Shown: in pieces, positions 16,038-64,000 of the stretch
Position numbering within the stretch: position 1 is the stretch's first letter
Layout of the letters: the number at the start of each line of letters is the position of its first letter
Assembly: GCF_900112605.1 (NCBI RefSeq)
Contig: NZ_FOMJ01000004.1
Span: 124,001 to 188,000, forward strand
Direction of reading: 5' to 3'
DNA from: Thiohalospira halophila DSM 15071
GTDB lineage: Bacteria; Pseudomonadota; Gammaproteobacteria; Thiohalospirales; Thiohalospiraceae
DNA length: 64,000 nt
Position numbers and translations under genes: made by a program
The notes under the pieces: model-generated
What the model saw: the letters and a program-made list of their open reading frames with translations, nothing else
Told to the model about the DNA's origin: nothing
Databases searched by the model: none

Positions 16038-16823
16038 GTGGAGGCCGTGATTCTCTATATCGCCGTCGGCGCCGGGTCCGGCCTGCTGGGCGGTCTGCTG
16101 GGGCTGGGTGGGGGACTGGTGACCGTGCCGGCGCTGGCGGCCTGGTTCGCCGCAGCCGGTTACGGGGAGGCGGCGATGCATCTGGCCGTGGGGAGCTCCC
16201 TGGCGGTGATCCCCTTCACGCTGGCCTCGGCGGTGGTCGCCCACGCCCGGCGCGGGGCGGTGGCCTGGCCATTGTTGAAGGGGCTGGTGCCGGGCGCCGT
16301 GCTCGGCGGTCTGGCGGGGGCCCTGCTGGTGGGTGGTCTGGACGGGGCACGGCTGGCGGTACTCTTCGGCACCTTCCTCATCCTGGTGGCGCTATGGATG
16401 GCGCTGGGGCGCAAGCCGTCCCCGGGTCGGCAGCCACCGGGACGGGTCGGGCAGGCGATGGCGGGTGGCGTGATCGGCCTTGTCGCCGCCCCCATGGGGG
16501 TGGCCGGCGGGACGCTCACCGTCCCCTGGCTGGCGTGGCACAACATCCCGCTCCCCCGGGCCGTCGCCACCTCCGCCGCCCTGGGGCTACCCATCGCCCT
16601 GGCCGGGGTGGCCGGTTTCCTGATCACTGGCAGCGGGGTGCCGGGACGGCCGGAGGGGGCGACGGGCTGGGTCCACCTCCCGGCCGTGGCCGCCCTGGCC
16701 CCGGCCGCCATCCTCACCGCGCCGCTGGGGGCCCGTCTGGCCCACGCCCTGCCGGTTACCCTCCTCCGCCGGATCTTCGCCGGGTTCCTGGTGGTCGTGG
16801 GCCTGCGGATGATGATCGGCTGA
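16038..16823 (+). CDS. TSUP (TauE/SafE)-family permease
   Basis: A 261-residue inner-membrane protein with about eight hydrophobic helices in two repeats. The N-terminal GLLGGLLGLGGGLVTVPAL and the second-half GLVAAPMGVAGGTLTVPWL are the paired glycine-rich signatures of the family. Members move sulfite, organosulfonates or other small anions; the exact substrate is not deducible. A GTG start is preceded by a GGGGGG tract. It is divergent from the DUF5666 cluster and convergent with the transposase-like gene, and appears monocistronic. Confidence 0.88.
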   Translation: MEAVILYIAVGAGSGLLGGLLGLGGGLVTVPALAAWFAAAGYGEAAMHLAVGSSLAVIPFTLASAVVAHARRGAVAWPLLKGLVPGAVLGGLAGALLVGGLDGARLAVLFGTFLILVALWMALGRKPSPGRQPPGRVGQAMAGGVIGLVAAPMGVAGGTLTVPWLAWHNIPLPRAVATSAALGLPIALAGVAGFLITGSGVPGRPEGATGWVHLPAVAALAPAAILTAPLGARLAHALPVTLLRRIFAGFLVVVGLRMMIG

Positions 16824-16838
16824 GTATTCCCCTCAGCC
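16818..16838. terminator. Possible bidirectional hairpin between convergent genes
   Basis: GGCTGAG and CTCAGCC form a 7-bp stem around TATTCCC and include the stop codons of both converging genes. There is no clear T-run on either side, so its terminator strength is doubtful. Confidence 0.35.
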
Positions 16839-17798
16839 CGTGAGTCGGGTGCGGGCGGCCTCGACGGCGCGCTGGAGGCGGCCCTCCTTCTGCAGTGCCT
16901 CGCCAAGGCGGCGGACGTGCTGGCTCACGGCGGAGTAGTGGATCCCGCCGAAGTGCTCGCCGATGGCGGCCAGGGTCCGGTCGGTCTCCTCCCGGCAGAG
17001 CCACATGGCCACCCGGCGCGCCTCGCGGATGGCCGGGCTGGCACCGTAGCCGCGACCGCCCAGGGCCACCGGCTCCACGCCCCACTCCGCTGCCACCGCC
17101 GCGATGACCGCCTCGGCGGTGTGGAGGGCCGGGCGTGCCGGCTTCGGGTTCTCCGGGGAGGGGGTGGTGCCGGCCAGGGCCCGTTCCCGGAAGGCCTCGT
17201 CGCCCAGGATCGGCGTGGCGCGCTGATTGGCGTAGAAGCGCTCGAGTTCCTCCTCCACGCCGGACTCCACGAAGCCCCGATAGCCGGTGGGGTCCGAAGG
17301 ACCCAGGGCGTTGAGGACGGTCCCGGTCTCCAGCCAGGCGGGCGCGGTGGCTCGACCCAGATAGGCGGGGTAGCTGGACCAGGGCCAGTCGGCAAGGTTG
17401 GCCACCAGGGGTGGGTCGGCCTCCACCGGAGCGCGGTGGATGTAGCGAGAGACGGAGAGGAGCCAGGCGTCGGCATCCACCAGGATGGCCTTGTACCGGC
17501 CCCGGAAGAGGGGGCCGTCGGTCTCCTCCAGGCGGTTGTAGCGCTGGGTGTAGAGGCCGTCGATGTGGCGCATGGCCCGGCTGAGGTTGCCCAGCGGGGT
17601 CTGCACCAGCAGGTGGTAGTGGTCGGGCATGAGGCAGTAGGCGTGGATCCCGACCCGGAAGCGGTGAACCGCCTCGGCCAGGGTCTCCAGGAAGGCCTCG
17701 TAGCTGGCCCGTCCGGGGAAGATGGTCTGTCTGGCCCGGCCACGGTTCGTCACGTGGTACCAGGCGCCGTCGTATTCGATGCGTAGTGGTCGGCTCAT
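16833..17798 (-). CDS. REP-associated tyrosine transposase-like protein with DnaA-like C-terminal HTH
   Basis: A 321-residue protein of the Y1/IS200-like HUH superfamily. The N-terminus MSRPLRIEYDGAWYHVTNRG is characteristic; the metal-binding HUH is H60-Y61-H62 in MPDHYHLLVQTP, and the probable nucleophile is Y119 in SRYIHRAPV. Beyond about residue 225 the protein carries an additional helical part with AMWLCREETDRTLAAIG and EHFGGIHYSAVSQHVRRL, which closely resembles DnaA domain IV. Such proteins are usually single-copy housekeeping relatives that act on REP palindromes rather than active insertion sequences. No flanking terminal repeats are seen. Confidence 0.85.
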   Translation of the reverse strand: MSRPLRIEYDGAWYHVTNRGRARQTIFPGRASYEAFLETLAEAVHRFRVGIHAYCLMPDHYHLLVQTPLGNLSRAMRHIDGLYTQRYNRLEETDGPLFRGRYKAILVDADAWLLSVSRYIHRAPVEADPPLVANLADWPWSSYPAYLGRATAPAWLETGTVLNALGPSDPTGYRGFVESGVEEELERFYANQRATPILGDEAFRERALAGTTPSPENPKPARPALHTAEAVIAAVAAEWGVEPVALGGRGYGASPAIREARRVAMWLCREETDRTLAAIGEHFGGIHYSAVSQHVRRLGEALQKEGRLQRAVEAARTRLTG

Positions 17799-17906
17799 GG
17801 CGATCATTGTGGCCGCCGACTGAGGGATTGCAAGACCTGACCCCTTGGGGCCGGGAGGCGAATGGTCCATCCTGCGCCCCTCTTGGGCTGGTCCACCCCC
17901 GGTCAT

Positions 17907-17936
17907 GGAATGCAATGGCGCGCTGCCGCGTCCTAC
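17907..17936 (+). promoter_or_regulatory. Candidate ECF-type autoregulatory promoter
   Basis: GGAAT (17907-17911) and CGTC (17929-17932) are separated by 17 bases, matching the general GGAAC / CGTC layout of many ECF sigma promoters. It lies about 65 bases before the sigma-factor ATG, which fits autoregulation. Sequence similarity only. Confidence 0.4.
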
Positions 17937-17998: not shown

Positions 17999-18559
17999 AT
18001 GAGTGTACTGGACTGGCTGAGGGGGACCCGCTCGGCCCGCCGGCAACTGGTGGAGAGCCGACGACGGCTCTATCGCATGGCGCTCGCCTGGAGTGGCGAT
18101 CCCGCCCAGGCGGATGACCTGACCCAGGAAGCCCTGGCGCGGGCCCTGCAGAAGGCCCACCAGATCCGGGACCCGGAGCGGTTCGATAGCTGGCTCTTCG
18201 CCGTCCTCAATAATTGCTGGCGGGACCACCTGCGTCGTCGCCGGCCGGAGCCCCTGGAAGAGGGGGCCGAGGAGGAGATGGCCACCGAGGATCCGGGGCC
18301 CGAGGAGCTGGGGAGCAGCGACGAGATCGGCGCCCGGGTCCGTGCAGCGGTGGCTCAGCTACCCGCGGGACAGCGACAGGTGGTCAGCCTGGTGGACCTG
18401 GAAGGGATGAGTTACGCCGATGTGGCAAGCGCCCTGGATGTCCCGGTGGGGACGGTGATGAGCCGCCTCTACCGGGCGCGGCGTGCCCTCAAGGAGCGGC
18501 TGCTGGACCTGCATCCGGCGGAGGCGGCGGGACCCGCCCATTTACGGAGCGTGAAATGA
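17999..18559 (+). CDS. ECF-type RNA polymerase sigma factor
   Basis: A 186-residue sigma-70 family factor. Region 2 (about residues 22-90) contains YRMALAWSGDPAQADDLTQ and SWLFAVLNNCWRDHLRRRR; region 4 (about 115-170) contains LPAGQRQVVSLVDLEGMSY and VPVGTVMSRLYRARRAL. Region 3 is absent, as in ECF factors, and an acidic linker joins the two. The ATG is preceded by GGGGGGAG. The stop overlaps the start of the anti-sigma gene (ATGA), so the pair is translationally coupled. Its regulon cannot be seen, but a GGAAT-N17-CGTC promoter-like element lies upstream. Confidence 0.95.
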   Translation: MSVLDWLRGTRSARRQLVESRRRLYRMALAWSGDPAQADDLTQEALARALQKAHQIRDPERFDSWLFAVLNNCWRDHLRRRRPEPLEEGAEEEMATEDPGPEELGSSDEIGARVRAAVAQLPAGQRQVVSLVDLEGMSYADVASALDVPVGTVMSRLYRARRALKERLLDLHPAEAAGPAHLRSVK

Positions 18560-19254
18560 ACCACCCGAGCGAATCCGAAGAGATCCGGCTCAATGCCCTG
18601 CTGGATGATGAGCTGGATGAGGAGGAGCGCGCTGAACTCCTGCGGCGGATGTCAGCGGATCCGACCCTGCGCGAGGCCTACTGGCAGCTGGCGGTGAGCC
18701 GGGACCTGGTGGCCCATGCCTGGGACGGCATCGAGCCGCCGGAAGGGAGCGAGAGCCGGAAGAAGAGCCCGAGGGCCGGACAGCGCGCCCCCCTGCTCGC
18801 CGCCGCGGCCGTGGTCCTGCTGGCCGTGGGCTTTCTGGCCGGCCGGATGGTCGCCCTGGTGCCGGATATGGGGGGTGCCGGCCCGGTGGAAATGACCCAG
18901 GCCGCGGACGACAAGGTCGTCGTGCACATAACCGAGTCCGATCCCCGGAACCAGCGCCGGGCCCTGGACCGGGTGGACGCACTGCTGGCGGCCGGCAAGG
19001 AGCGGGTGGAGCTGGTGGCCCAGTCCCGCGGCCTCGATCTCCTCCGTACCGATCGCTCTGCCGCGGCCAAGCGGGTCCATCGCCTCCTGAGGGATCATGC
19101 CGGCCTGCGGGTCTACGCCTGCGGCAACACCCTCACCCGCCTCCAGGAGCGCGGCGAGGAGATCGAACTACTGGACGGAACCCGTCGCGCCTCCTCCGCC
19201 GAGGACCACATCGTCGACCGCCTCCAGGAGGGCTGGAGCTACATCCAGGCGTAG
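18556..19254 (+). CDS. Membrane anti-sigma factor with extracytoplasmic DsrE-like domain
   Basis: A 232-residue protein. Residues 1-57 resemble the RseA-type cytoplasmic sigma-binding domain (LNALLDDELDEEERAELLRR, then LREAYWQLAVSRDLVAH). A single TM helix spans about 79-101. Residues about 119-230 match the DsrE/DsrF-like fold: KVVVHITE, a VELVAQSRGLDLLRTD strand-loop, VYACGNTL with Cys189 at the conserved active-cysteine position, and the terminal QEGWSYI. DsrE proteins normally relay sulfur in the cytoplasm; here membrane topology would place the domain in the periplasm, implying that the anti-sigma factor senses a sulfur species or redox state. It overlaps the sigma gene by 4 bases. The fusion itself is read directly; the sensory role is inferred. 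Confidence 0.85.
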   Translation: MNHPSESEEIRLNALLDDELDEEERAELLRRMSADPTLREAYWQLAVSRDLVAHAWDGIEPPEGSESRKKSPRAGQRAPLLAAAAVVLLAVGFLAGRMVALVPDMGGAGPVEMTQAADDKVVVHITESDPRNQRRALDRVDALLAAGKERVELVAQSRGLDLLRTDRSAAAKRVHRLLRDHAGLRVYACGNTLTRLQERGEEIELLDGTRRASSAEDHIVDRLQEGWSYIQA

Positions 19255-59406: not shown

Positions 59407-60290
59407 GATGCCGATTCGTCGGTGTAGCCGAGGTAGCGCTGATAGAAGGGGTCGAGCCGTTCGTTGATGACCCGCTCGACGTGGGCGAGGTTCTCGCCCT
59501 GGAGGTAGTCTCGATAGCCGCCGACCTCGCCCTTGCGCGTCTTGAAGCTCTCCGGGTCACTGGTGTCCCGTGCGGCCAGGCGGCTGGTGCCCAGGGCGTT
59601 GCTGGCCTCGAGCTTGCGCATGTTGTTGAAGTCGCAGAACTCCACGGCCTCCTGAATGACGGAATCGGAGACGCCGTGGATGCCGAGGAACTCCAGGGCC
59701 GCCCGCAGCCCGCCGGCGGTGTCGGCCTTGAGATCCTCATAGGCGACCAGGTGGAACCCGGAGGGGACCTCCCGATTCGCGGCCCAGATGTTGTAGAAGG
59801 TCACGATGGTCTCGATGCCGCCCCGGCGCTGATGGACGAACTCGTCCATGGAGCCGGAGAAGTTCGCGTTGCGCCGGGTGTTCTGGAAGTAGGAAGAGAC
59901 CAGCACGTCACGCGGGTCGCGGACCATGAACAGGACCTTGCGACCGGCGTACTCCGACTTGTCCCGGGGCAGCTCCTCCGGCTCGCAGAACTCCGGTCCG
60001 CCGTCGTGATGCTGTAGAATAAAGGGCACATCTCGCCAGGGACGGACGAATTGCCGGAGCTTCATGGGATTCCGTACACGCTTGCCCAGGTGCCCCTCCA
60101 GCGCCTTGCCGATGAGCATGACCAGCCAGGTCCGACCGCACTTCGGGTACGAGATCAGGTGTGCCCCGGCCCGCCACTTGCGCCAGCGGCGGCGAGCAAG
60201 CTGGACGGCGCGGCGGACGGGACCGCGGCGGCGAACAATCGCAGTCACAAAGGAGAATCCAGTTGCAATTACCAATGGGTATTGAATCAT
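59403..60290 (-). CDS. Sulfotransferase_1-type protein
   Basis: A 295-residue protein with PAPS loop HLISYPKCGRTWLVMLIGKA (the YPKxGxTW form of the cytosolic-type family), the 3'-phosphate segment VLFMVRDPRDVLVSSYFQNT and the late KGEVGGYRDYL, matching the RKGxxGDW-like C-terminal motif. The N-terminal 35 residues are basic and slightly hydrophobic. It is coupled by 4 bases to the GT4 gene. The start, ATG 60290, has no good ribosome site. GC content is still high here and drops just upstream. Confidence 0.9.
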   Translation of the reverse strand: MIQYPLVIATGFSFVTAIVRRRGPVRRAVQLARRRWRKWRAGAHLISYPKCGRTWLVMLIGKALEGHLGKRVRNPMKLRQFVRPWRDVPFILQHHDGGPEFCEPEELPRDKSEYAGRKVLFMVRDPRDVLVSSYFQNTRRNANFSGSMDEFVHQRRGGIETIVTFYNIWAANREVPSGFHLVAYEDLKADTAGGLRAALEFLGIHGVSDSVIQEAVEFCDFNNMRKLEASNALGTSRLAARDTSDPESFKTRKGEVGGYRDYLQGENLAHVERVINERLDPFYQRYLGYTDESAS

Positions 60291-60396
60291 ATGATAACGA
60301 GCTATGCGAGAGCTTTCTGATTAGCTCAGAACGATTTAGTGTCAATCCGTGAGCACACGCTTGATGCTTCCGGTAACATTACACAAAAAGGGCGCC

Positions 60397-61125
60397 ATGA
60401 TTGTATCGCATCGGAACAGATTCATCTTCCTGAAAACGAGAAAGACTGCGGGTAGTAGCACCGAGATCGCTCTTTCCCGTCTCTGCGACACCAACGACAT
60501 TGTAACCCCCTTGATAGAAAAGCGGGGAGAAGAAGAGTTAAGGAAGGCAGAGGGCGGGTATGGGCCAGTCAACGCTTTAAAAAAACCTCTCCAGCATTAT
60601 GGGCGCAAAGAGTGGCAACGTCTTCTCCTTAAGGCGCAACGAGCCCCTTGGAAAACTCATAGTCGCCCCCACCACATCCGTAGAGGGATAGGCAAGAAAA
60701 AGTGGGATCAGTATTTGAAGGTCACCATAGAGCGAAATCCTTGGGATAGGGCTATATCTAGATATTACTGGATGAAAGCAAGGGCACTCGAAGCCGGAGA
60801 AAAAGAGTTCCCTTCAATCACGAATTTCCTGCTGAAACTCGAGAAAGAAAAGCCTGCCCTTTTGTCGAATTGGGGTTTGTATACAATAAAAGATACAGTT
60901 ATTGCGGATAAAGTAATTTTTTACGAAAGCCTTAACGAGGGGCTTTCGGATCTTGAACGTTGCCTTGGTCTTTCGGAAGGCTTGTTGAGTCTCCCGAGCG
61001 TGCACGCTAAAAGTGGCTTCAGAGAAGATAAGCGGCCGTACCAGGAGGTGCTTTCCGAAATTGACAGAGAGATCATCGCGCGTGTCTGTAGGAATGAGAT
61101 AGAGGCGTTTGGCTATACTTTCTAA
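60397..61125 (+). CDS. Sulfotransferase family 2-type protein, low GC
   Basis: A 242-residue protein. MIVSHRNRFIFLKTRKTAGS with SSTEIALSRL supplies the PAPS loop KTRKTAGSS; LKVTIERNPWDRAISRYYWM is the 3'-phosphate motif; the end EIEAFGYTF is the same type of terminus as the sulfotransferase at 55039. ATG 60397 has AAGGG upstream and gives the family start; upstream codons to 60349 are extra. Base composition is much lower in GC than the genes to the left, pointing to transfer. Confidence 0.88.
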   Translation: MIVSHRNRFIFLKTRKTAGSSTEIALSRLCDTNDIVTPLIEKRGEEELRKAEGGYGPVNALKKPLQHYGRKEWQRLLLKAQRAPWKTHSRPHHIRRGIGKKKWDQYLKVTIERNPWDRAISRYYWMKARALEAGEKEFPSITNFLLKLEKEKPALLSNWGLYTIKDTVIADKVIFYESLNEGLSDLERCLGLSEGLLSLPSVHAKSGFREDKRPYQEVLSEIDREIIARVCRNEIEAFGYTF

Positions 61126-61212
61126 TATATTTAGGCGAGGTTGTTAAACTGGGGACTGCTCTCTCAGGACTCGACGTTTTAAAGGTAAGACCTCATTTGG
61201 TCAGGAGTTATT

Positions 61213-62121
61213 ATGCGAGTGTTTGTTTTTTCTTACAATAGAGGGCAATACCTCAAAAACTGCATCCAATCTCTTTGGCGGCATATGCCTAACTACCCGA
61301 TAACAATCGTTGATGATGGAAGTACAGATCCTGAAGTGATAGAAACGCTTGACTGTGTCCGCGGGTACGCAGACGTGATCGTAAACGATAGAGAGGAGAA
61401 GTCTTATCTAGGTGGCCTATACAATAATATGCAGTTCGCCCTAGATTCATCCGTAAATTGCGACCTCGCCCTTTTTATTCAAGACGACCAACAAATTGTG
61501 CGGCCCATTGAGCGTTTTGACGAAAAACATTGGGACGATTACTTTTCGCGTAATCCGACTGCTCATGAGCTAGGTACAACCTTCCTAAAACGAGGGTCGA
61601 AGGCTGATTCCGATGGGATAACTATTGACTGTGCAACGGGAGTTTACTTTCGAGATCCACGCGTGAGCAAACGAGCCTATTTCACGGCTACGGGGATTTT
61701 TAATGTGGCCCGCATGCGAAAAGTCAGCTGGCGATTTGGGGCTACCGAAGGTGAGAACAATCTTAAAGCACACGACGAAAAGTTCTCGTTGGGTTTTTCA
61801 GCATATCCTTTTATGATGTGGTTGCCGAACGCGAAGAGTTCTAAGTTTCAGCGAAAAGGGCATCTTCATGCTCTCGCAGAGTGGTATCGCTGCTCTGGCT
61901 TTTATCCGTACCGAGACATGACGTCTGACGAGGTCAATTGGTTAAAATATAGATCTATAGAAAAATTGCCCTATGCGCAAGATATATTGCATCCTTTAGG
62001 TCTAAAACCAAATCAGGACTGGCTTTTTGAAGACGCAACTAAATCGATCCGTTGGATCCATAGGCGATTGAAAAAAAGAAAGAAGAAAATGGCGCGAAAT
62101 CAAGCCCTGAATAGAGAGTAG
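61213..62121 (+). CDS. GT2-like glycosyltransferase (copy 1), low GC
   Basis: A 302-residue inverting GT-A glycosyltransferase-like protein. MRVFVFSYNRGQYLKNCIQS, ITIVDDGSTDPEVIETL and ALFIQDDQQIVRP (DxD-like DD) show the GT2 start; the second half has FSAYPFMMWLPNAKSSKFQR and WYRCSGFYPYRDMTSDEV. AGGAG precedes the ATG. A clear paralogue lies at 62876-63790 with the same length and motif positions. AT-richer than the rest of the window. Confidence 0.87.
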   Translation: MRVFVFSYNRGQYLKNCIQSLWRHMPNYPITIVDDGSTDPEVIETLDCVRGYADVIVNDREEKSYLGGLYNNMQFALDSSVNCDLALFIQDDQQIVRPIERFDEKHWDDYFSRNPTAHELGTTFLKRGSKADSDGITIDCATGVYFRDPRVSKRAYFTATGIFNVARMRKVSWRFGATEGENNLKAHDEKFSLGFSAYPFMMWLPNAKSSKFQRKGHLHALAEWYRCSGFYPYRDMTSDEVNWLKYRSIEKLPYAQDILHPLGLKPNQDWLFEDATKSIRWIHRRLKKRKKKMARNQALNRE

Positions 62122-62189
62122 GCGATCCTGGGTTTTGTTCGAGATGCTCCTGCGTTCGCAGCAGATAGTCTGGTGTTGGTCAACGGCAT
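62122..62189. other. Intergenic stretch before the IS481 relic
   Basis: Sixty-eight bases between the glycosyltransferase stop and the possible left end of the IS481 relic. I see no promoter, hairpin or coding potential here. Confidence 0.5.
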
Positions 62190-62776
62190 TGAGGGACCCG
62201 GTTACGCGGAGTAGGTAATTGGCGGGTCCGGAGTGATTCCGTGGTTTTTGATAAAGAAGATCAGGCCGCTCGGCATACGAGCTGTCCATCGCTTGGAAGT
62301 GCCTCCACGGCCGCTGGCGCTTGGTTTCGGTGGGCATGATCGAAATCCCGTGGCGCTTGAGCAGCCGATGGACTGCCGAGCGGGAGGCGTTCTCGTTGAG
62401 GAACTCCCGGGTGACGGCGAGCATGTCCTCCAGGGCGAGCCACAGGGTCCGGCGCAGGCCCACCACCACCGCCTCCTGCTCCGGCGTCAGGGCTGTGCGC
62501 AGTCGGTGGGCGGTATGCGAGCCGTCTTCGGTGGTCTCTCACTTACGCCAGCGGCGGATGGTGTCCTCGGAGACGCCGAACTTCCGGGGCAGCTCCCGGA
62601 TCGGTTTGTCCGAAGCCTCTATGGCCGCTCGTCGGCCCGGCGTGGTGGCCGTGTTCTTTGCAAGCGAATGTCCATCAGGCCCGTCTCCGTCGCTGGCAAC
62701 GATGTCTCGCATCACGGCGCGACTGGTGAACAGTGCCTGGCGTCGGCGGGTCAATGCAATCATCGGGGACCTGACA
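62190..62776 (-). mobile_element. Internally deleted IS481-family insertion-sequence relic
   Basis: High-GC DNA with IS481 transposase remnants lies inside AT-richer glycan genes. Its possible ends are TGAGGGACCCGG (from 62190) and TGTCAGGTCCCCGA (complement, ending at 62776), imperfect inverted repeats. Only about 590 bases remain, against roughly 1 kb or more for a complete element, and the catalytic DDE part is missing. No target-site duplication was evident. The exact ends are tentative; family identity rests on the pseudogene. Confidence 0.5.
62280..62675 (-). pseudogene. IS481-type transposase fragment, frameshifted, with in-frame stop and truncated
   Basis: ATG 62675 begins MDIRLQRTR in one frame, while the next part, TTPGRRAAIEASDKPIRELP with RKFGVSEDTIRRWRK, is in another frame, so a frameshift lies near the start. 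A TGA (complement of 62539-62541) then interrupts the frame; reading through gives HTAHRLRTALTPEQEAVVVG and FLNENASRSAVHRLLKRHGI, the usual IS481 N-terminal helix-turn-helix region. After TETKRQRPWRHFQAM the sequence loses similarity, so the DDE catalytic core is gone. Three independent lesions make this clearly non-functional. Confidence 0.82.
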
Positions 62777-62875
62777 ATTACATCGCAACATTTTGAGCGG
62801 TAGGCGAAGCAATGTCGCACTTGAGGCAAGCTTTTTAGAATGTAATGCTAACGAAATTATTGGAGGTTAATTGAG
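62777..62875. other. Gap before the second glycosyltransferase, with its ribosome site
   Basis: An AT-rich 99-base stretch between the IS relic and the next glycosyltransferase; it ends in TGGAGG at good spacing to the ATG at 62876. No clear promoter can be defined. Confidence 0.4.
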
Positions 62876-63790
62876 ATGTTAGAAATATTTTTGTTCTCGT
62901 ACAATCGCGGCAAGTACCTGAAAAACTGCCTAGATTCAATAAAGAAGCATGCCCCTAACCTGAAGGTAACAATCTTCGATGACGGCAGTAGCGATCCGGA
63001 AACACAGGACGCGCTCGCGGAGTATAGTGAAGCGTACCAAGTGGTTGTTACAGACAAAGTGAATAATGGCCACTACGTTGGTGGGCTTTATGATAACATG
63101 AATAAGGCATTAGCTAGTGCGCAAGAAGAGTTCGCGTTATTCATTCAAGAAGACATGCAGCTCGTCAGAGATGTTAACGAGCAAGATATCGAACACGTGA
63201 AGAGGTTTTTTGATAAGTATCCGGATTCTATCGAGCTACATAATGCCTTTCTAAAAGGTCGCCAAAGGGCGAAGGACGGCGAAGTCCTTGAGATTGACGA
63301 AAATGGGCCATTTTATTTTCGCGCGCCTGGCGGTAAAGGCTCTGTTAATTTTTCCGCCGTTGGTGTGATAAACGTGGGTCGATTAAAACGAGATTCGTTT
63401 GAATTTCGTCCCTTTGAGGCGCAAAATGACGAAATCATTGGCCAGCAGTATACCAGAATGGGTATCACGCCATACCCTTGGATGATGTGGCTGCCCTTTT
63501 CTGAGACGTCGAAGTTCAAGAGGAAGGGGATTTTGCAGAGGTATGCCGAATGGAAGACGGCAGCGGGTTTTTATCCATACCGTCCAATGACTTCCGCGGA
63601 AGTGGAAAACCTCTTGTCGCGAGGCCCTGAGGAGTTCCCTTACGCAGAGGACTGGTTAAGCCCTCAAGGATTAGAGGGGCGGTCTGTGTGGAATTTTTCA
63701 GATGCTGCGAAGTTTGTTCCTTTTACCAAAAAAGTCCTTAAGTTTAGAAAGAAGCTTGATAAAAGACGTAATTCTGTGACGAGGCATTAA
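62876..63790 (+). CDS. GT2-like glycosyltransferase (copy 2), low GC
   Basis: A 304-residue protein paralogous to the one at 61213-62121: MLEIFLFSYNRGKYLKNCLD, VTIFDDGSSDPETQDAL, FALFIQEDMQLVRDVNEQDI, and YPWMMWLPFSETSKFKRKG with AGFYPYRPMTSAEVE. The two share length and motif order throughout, so they arose by duplication or joint transfer, and are separated only by the IS481 relic. TGGAGG precedes the ATG. Four bases after its stop the next sulfotransferase-like gene begins. Confidence 0.88.
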   Translation: MLEIFLFSYNRGKYLKNCLDSIKKHAPNLKVTIFDDGSSDPETQDALAEYSEAYQVVVTDKVNNGHYVGGLYDNMNKALASAQEEFALFIQEDMQLVRDVNEQDIEHVKRFFDKYPDSIELHNAFLKGRQRAKDGEVLEIDENGPFYFRAPGGKGSVNFSAVGVINVGRLKRDSFEFRPFEAQNDEIIGQQYTRMGITPYPWMMWLPFSETSKFKRKGILQRYAEWKTAAGFYPYRPMTSAEVENLLSRGPEEFPYAEDWLSPQGLEGRSVWNFSDAAKFVPFTKKVLKFRKKLDKRRNSVTRH

Positions 63791-63794
63791 GAGT

Positions 63795-64000
63795 ATGAAT
63801 AATCCCAGCGACGGGGTTCTGACCCTCCATTTGGGGCTGCCAAAGACAGCGAGCACTTGGTTACAAAAATCGGTGTTCCCGGCGATGGGGGGTATAGATT
63901 ATTTGGGGCATATGAGTTGGAAATCTATTCGTATTCCGCCTCGTAACAGAAAGACGCGTTTAGACAAGATTTTTCGGATGCACCCTCGCGTTTGGGATAA
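63795..64000 (+). CDS. Sulfotransferase-fold protein, 5' part (cut by window end)
   Basis: The first 68 codons are in the window. GVLTLHLGLPKTASTWLQKS at residues 7-26 is a PAPS-loop variant (GLPKTASTW) similar to that of the protein at 55707. No stop is reached by base 64000. Low GC like its neighbours. Confidence 0.75.
   Translation, partial: MNNPSDGVLTLHLGLPKTASTWLQKSVFPAMGGIDYLGHMSWKSIRIPPRNRKTRLDKIFRMHPRVWD

Follow-up and report, generated by a model that had tools for sequence, protein, structure and literature searches.

The periplasmic parts of the anti-sigma factors RseA and MucA are controlled by proteolysis and are not DsrE domains. To our knowledge, the sensing of thiosulfate, tetrathionate and sulfane sulfur in the periplasm of chemolithotrophs is poorly understood, and most of the known sulfur-responsive regulators are cytoplasmic. 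The ECF26 sigma factors of S. meliloti respond to sulfite-generating compounds (PMC3511301; PMC6527743), and promoters of the RpoE1 type have been mapped in this organism as GGGAATAAAT...GTGTCTTA (PMC6180224). In Metallosphaera, the protein DsrE3A reacted with tetrathionate to form a Cys-S-thiosulfonate, and showed no reaction with sulfide, polysulfide, thiosulfate or sulfite (PMC4175335). In the open-access literature, to which our search was confined, we found no description of an anti-sigma factor carrying a DsrE domain; the author of an earlier note on this DNA likewise knew of none. Here we describe such a predicted protein from Thiohalospira halophila DSM 15071, encoded next to an ECF sigma factor within a stretch of 64,000 nucleotides (the window).

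Organization of the locus

The sigma factor contained the Pfam domains Sigma70_r2 (3e-15) and r4_2 (3e-18), and the start of the anti-sigma gene overlapped the sigma stop codon as ATGA (Table 1). Together with the open reading frames and the topology, these data bore out the earlier description of an ECF sigma factor coupled to an anti-sigma factor with one transmembrane helix. Cotranscription with an ECF sigma gene, as indicated by the overlap, and a single helix with a predicted N-in orientation are traits of class I anti-sigma factors. The best match to the sigma factor in S. meliloti was 40% identical and was located in a locus with the order sigma, anti-sigma, sulfite oxidase, cytochrome c and pseudoazurin, which corresponds to RpoE4. 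Motif statistics, compared with the mapped RpoE1 promoters (PMC6180224), revealed an ECF26-type promoter (GGAATAAA...GTCT). The sigma factor thus looks ECF26-like, as placed by its nearest S. meliloti relative and its promoter type.

A gene for a TauE/SafE-type permease (16038-16823, plus strand; Pfam 2e-48), possibly an exporter of sulfite or a sulfur compound, was located about 1.2 kb upstream of the sigma gene. Between these two genes, the minus strand (16833-17915) encoded a RAYT-like protein that combines an IS200-type Y1 transposase domain with a DnaA-C-like helix-turn-helix. At positions 60001-64000 of the window, the G+C content dropped from about 0.72 to 0.48-0.51, and the open reading frames appeared sulfotransferase- and glycosyltransferase-like by eye; this region was probably acquired.

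Table 1. Features of the sigma/anti-sigma locus, in window coordinates
Feature	Position	Strand	Remarks
Predicted autoregulatory ECF promoter, GGAATGCAATGGCGCGCTGCCGCGTC (GGAAT-N17-CGTC)	17907-17932	+	about 70 nt upstream of sigma start
ECF sigma factor gene	17999-18559	+	186 aa; apparently ECF26-like; Sigma70_r2 and r4_2 (Pfam), S. meliloti match
Membrane anti-sigma factor gene with predicted periplasmic DsrE-like domain	18556-19254	+	232 aa
Cytoplasmic class-I-like anti-sigma domain, residues 1-56	18556-18723	+	three helices; conserved D17, L20, D21
Single transmembrane helix, residues 78-100	18787-18855	+	model and sequence topology
Predicted periplasmic DsrE/MTH1491-like sensor domain, residues 118-232	18907-19251	+	family profile and predicted fold
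Cys189 codon, candidate sulfur-reactive residue	19120-19122	+	kept in 81/81 homologues reaching the column

Cytoplasmic domain and topology of the anti-sigma factor

The AlphaFold2 model, run on an alignment of 18 rows (pLDDT 87), consisted of three cytoplasmic helices (residues 6-16, 22-34 and 36-55), one transmembrane helix (78-100) and an alpha/beta domain (118-232). Residues 2-56 matched MucA from the AlgU complex (8z6g_E) with a modest Z score of 6.1 over 54 residues, and the modelled helices and this match point to the helical sigma-binding domain of class I anti-sigma factors. The earlier note had called this part RseA-like. A class-I-like fold was indeed predicted, but Pfam RseA_N had no match in the window protein and was found in only 4 of 18 homologues (best 0.006). 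A zinc-binding anti-sigma domain was also considered and rejected, as the zf-HC2 matches were below threshold and no ligand set was conserved. The sole frequent cytoplasmic cysteine of the family (62 of 82 sequences) was missing from the window protein. This part is better named a class-I-like anti-sigma domain without zinc ligands.

Around the transmembrane helix, the mean number of Lys and Arg residues in 81 homologues was 4.2 before the helix versus 1.6 after it, corresponding to an N-in orientation. Because the positive charges lie on the N-terminal side, the DsrE domain is predicted to be periplasmic, in agreement with the placement proposed in the earlier note.

The DsrE-like domain and Cys189

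The window protein alone had no match to DsrE, or to any other family above threshold, in Pfam or NCBIfam, and the assignment made by eye in the earlier note therefore needed evidence from its relatives. PF02635 was matched by 8 of 18 homologues (best 1e-6), and the profile of the family domain matched PDB 1l1s (MTH1491) with an E value of 1e-27. Structure prediction yielded the DsrE fold: the modelled domain resembled MTH1491 (Foldseek TM 0.88, VIA Z 17.8), as well as DsrE (Z 13.0) and TusD (Z 12.9) in VIA-align, and the top ten VIA rows were all DsrE/YchN/TusD-type folds (Z 17.8-11.9), followed by unrelated folds at 7.2 or lower. The DsrE/YchN-type alpha/beta fold and the sequence match at the family level place the domain in the DsrE/DsrF superfamily (PF02635).

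The window protein had no periplasmic cysteine other than Cys189. This residue was retained in all 81 alignable homologues, which removed the possibility, raised earlier, that it might not be conserved. The residues W227, G226, G159, L20 and D17 were also nearly invariant in the joint alignment. In the model, Cys189 was located at the end of a strand and before a helix, and it aligned on Cys78 of TusD in a non-significant profile alignment (hhalign probability <1%). Its position apparently corresponds to that of the active cysteine in DsrE/TusD.

Distribution, origin and gene neighbourhood

A whole-genome search showed the full three-part architecture (sigma-binding domain, transmembrane helix and DsrE domain) in 15 of 95 relative genomes from many families, with 26-35% identity. 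A second locus search of named genomes, using a five-sequence alignment, gave 66 loci, whereas a single-protein query gave none. These loci belonged mainly to Thiobacillus, Thiohalobacter, Thiogranum, Thioalkalivibrio, Sulfuricella, Sulfurisoma, Thiotrichaceae and unclassified Gammaproteobacteria, and the nearest homologue (53% identical) came from a MAG labelled Thiohalomonas denitrificans. The cross-genome search suggested in the earlier note thus recovered the architecture repeatedly, and its recurrence in 15 of 95 relatives and about 65 loci of named organisms argues that it did not arise by chance and excludes an orphan pair unique to this genome. No relatives of the pair were found on plasmids. 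In a FastTree phylogeny of 79 fused and 43 stand-alone, mostly exported, DsrE domains, the two sets were parted by one branch with a support of 97, which is consistent with one fusion event. The fusion is apparently a conserved family of one origin in sulfur-oxidising Gammaproteobacteria and their relatives. Among the 95 relatives, SoxB scored above the cut-off in 14 of the 15 genomes with the fused protein versus 18 of the 80 without it (Fisher p 3e-7). Some genomes hold two such sigma/anti-sigma pairs, so the assignment of targets is not unique.

At many loci the pair was divergent from genes for an exported DsrE, a porin (weak Porin_O_P match) and sometimes a PEGA/SHOCT lipoprotein. Stand-alone DsrE genes were near the pair at 33 of the 66 named loci and directly divergent at 18, and the products of 40 out of 42 such genes had a hydrophobic N-terminus. 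A porin was nearby in 24 of the 66, and soxA/B/X/Z genes adjoined the pair in 8, with examples of SoxA, SoxB, SoxX and SoxZ confirmed at the NCBIfam equivalog level. In T. halophila itself, no stand-alone DsrE adjoins the pair. Five further DsrE-type domains were encoded elsewhere in this genome (C10:64177, C1:110223, C1:383796, C5:124086 and C7:22102), at least one of them with a Tat-like signal peptide. The porins (L036, L045, L047 and others) formed a family of about 450 aa with an N-terminal AANWLMLQGTE motif and a weak Pfam match or none; the family is apparently co-regulated with the exported DsrE and is a candidate outer-membrane channel for sulfur compounds.

Promoter element and predicted regulon

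The upstream regions shared the element GGAATA(A)-N-CGTC with fixed spacing, and the sigma and divergent promoters both carried GGAATA-N16-CGTC. The exact motif GGAAT-N17-CGTC was present upstream of 11 of 19 sigma genes (shuffle mean 0.02). In the named set of 60 regions, which partly overlaps the 19-region set, 33 exact and 47 relaxed matches were found, compared with means of 0.07 and 0.7 after shuffling; 25 to 32 regions also had a divergent copy, and 13 lacked the motif. The sigma upstream regions of six Thiogranum loci (L081, L095, L104, L110, L117 and L128) were without GGAAT-N16-18-CGTC/CATC, and this subgroup may use a variant promoter.

The full consensus, GGAATAAA-N14-CGTC, occurred at 21 sites in a scan of 15 genomes versus 4 for the reversed control. 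Sixteen of these sites preceded the module itself or genes annotated, by gene content, for sulfur or related functions: sigma (4), exported DsrE and/or porin (6, including the DsrE of G078), a SoxB-like metallophosphatase divergent from sigma, soxXY, soxB, a YeiH-type permease, a Sulf_transp (YeeE-type) transporter adjoining tusA and dsrH, and an operon in T. halophila. The remaining five preceded nothing recognisably sulfur-related.

The T. halophila genome (2.69 Mb) was SoxB positive, and a RuBisCO-like gene was seen. A loose scan of this genome with GGAAT-N15-19-CGTC returned 93 sites, mostly background, and the stricter consensus was used instead. Its single full consensus site lay 121 nt upstream of the operon, which encoded a dihaem cytochrome c, a TsdA-like thiosulfate dehydrogenase (PDB 1e-49; PF21342 above threshold) and a porin of the family that adjoins sigma elsewhere, of which this genome has a single copy. 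By our own estimate, the chance of such a site in that 300-nt stretch was about 6e-5. Since just one other sigma factor of this genome matched at E<0.001 (35%), attributing the tsd site to this sigma factor is reasonable, not proven. A near-consensus site, GGAATAATAGCCCAATCTTCAACGTCT (L051:11818; C1:461817), preceded an EAL-HDOD signalling gene by about 46 nt, 6 kb from the tsd operon, and this gene is a possible extra target. The link to sulfur that the earlier note had proposed was strengthened by the sox and exported DsrE neighbours, the co-occurrence with soxB, the shared promoter elements and the apparent ECF26 kinship.

Proposed mechanism and alternatives

The architecture, the fold, the conservation of the cysteine, the topology, the promoter motif with its targets and the co-occurrence were all computed. 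Taken together, they make it fairly probable, in our judgement, that tetrathionate or sulfane sulfur is sensed through Cys189 of the periplasmic DsrE domain and that the sigma factor is thereby freed, in a one-step transmembrane sulfur switch, for which we infer the ligand, the direction and the release step as follows. The cytoplasmic domain of the anti-sigma factor would hold the ECF sigma factor until thiosulfate metabolism delivers oxidised or sulfane sulfur species to the periplasm. Cys189, the presumed reacting residue, would then be modified, either by these species themselves or through an exported DsrE partner. The first candidate signal would be tetrathionate, giving a Cys-S-thiosulfonate as in Metallosphaera DsrE3A, and the next would be polysulfide or persulfide. 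The signal might cross the membrane through a change in the conformation, oligomer state or protease sensitivity of the sensor, upon which the sigma factor would be released. The freed sigma factor would transcribe its own operon and periplasmic sulfur-handling genes, namely cytochrome c-TsdA-porin here and exported DsrE-porin, soxXY, soxB and a YeeE-type transporter in relatives. Because tetrathionate is either a product or a substrate of TsdA, the proposed signal would itself be processed by the predicted regulon. For the wider picture, we see even chances of a system widespread in sulfur-oxidising Proteobacteria, in which a single fusion joined a sulfur-trafficking fold to an anti-sigma factor and covalent loading of Cys189 with tetrathionate or sulfane sulfur leads, across the membrane, to expression of the sox, tsd, sulfur-transport and porin genes.

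The DsrE domain could instead be a docking site, to which an exported neighbour DsrE binds, with the amount or sulfur load of this partner as the signal in a feedback loop. The stand-alone DsrE genes at the 33 loci, 18 of them directly divergent, are under the same promoter element, and DsrE proteins form trimers and hexamers, related ones being trimeric (PMC4175335). However, half of the loci, including that of the window, lack a DsrE partner beside the pair, and docking alone leaves the invariant cysteine unexplained; we regard it as unlikely. Docking of the exported DsrE is compatible with direct sensing, and the two may belong to one loop.

Sulfite, as for RpoE4 and RpoE1 of S. meliloti, would be the signal if the DsrE domain bound or reacted with it. 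RpoE4 was the most similar S. meliloti sigma factor, the promoter type was the same, and the TauE/SafE permease gene lies upstream; yet the sensors differ, as no DsrE domain was detectable by Pfam or BLAST in the S. meliloti anti-sigma factor, the targets here are thiosulfate and sulfane-sulfur genes rather than a sulfite dehydrogenase, and a DsrE protein assayed elsewhere was unreactive to sulfite (PMC4175335), which together render sulfite improbable. We give marginally less credit again to a general periplasmic thiol-stress sensor on a DsrE scaffold, responding to oxidants, electrophiles, arsenite or other metals: a single reactive cysteine would fit, and DsrE/F-like genes of Thioalkalivibrio change under arsenite (PMC6620896), but the gene neighbours, the regulon as recognised and the range of carrier genomes all point specifically to sulfur oxidation. 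It is very improbable that the DsrE domain is a structural leftover, with another membrane cue freeing the sigma factor, because Cys189 and W227 are nearly invariant at 25-35% overall identity.

If direct sensing through Cys189 is true, the protein would be a sensor that faces the periplasm and contains a sulfur-carrier fold of its own, for which both a promoter and a regulon are predicted, and an example of sensor-domain swapping within the apparent ECF26 group. The system is present in the cultivable Thiobacillus denitrificans and Thioalkalivibrio denitrificans, so it is directly testable, and a biosensor part for tetrathionate or polysulfide could follow.

Comparison with known systems

RseA and MucA share with the protein described here the class I cytoplasmic domain, the single transmembrane helix and the position of the gene after that of the sigma factor. 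MTH1491 (1l1s) and ST0148 (2pd2) have the same fold and the conserved AC-NT motif, but are stand-alone proteins without a transmembrane helix or an anti-sigma domain. DsrE of DsrEFH and TusD of TusBCD also have this fold and a conserved cysteine after a strand; in contrast, they are cytoplasmic sulfur-relay enzymes, not regulators, with 14-16% identity. The RpoE4-EcfR4-SorT system of S. meliloti (ECF26 group) has in common with the present locus the N-terminal anti-sigma motif LxAxxDxEL and a near-identical promoter type (GGGAATAAA...GTCT), and governs the oxidation of periplasmic sulfur compounds. In S. meliloti, however, the reported signal is sulfite and the target is a sulfite dehydrogenase, whereas tsd, sox and porin genes are the predicted targets here. 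Neither Pfam nor BLAST detected a DsrE domain in the S. meliloti anti-sigma factor, which suggests that the present locus combines an ECF26-like chassis with a different sensor.
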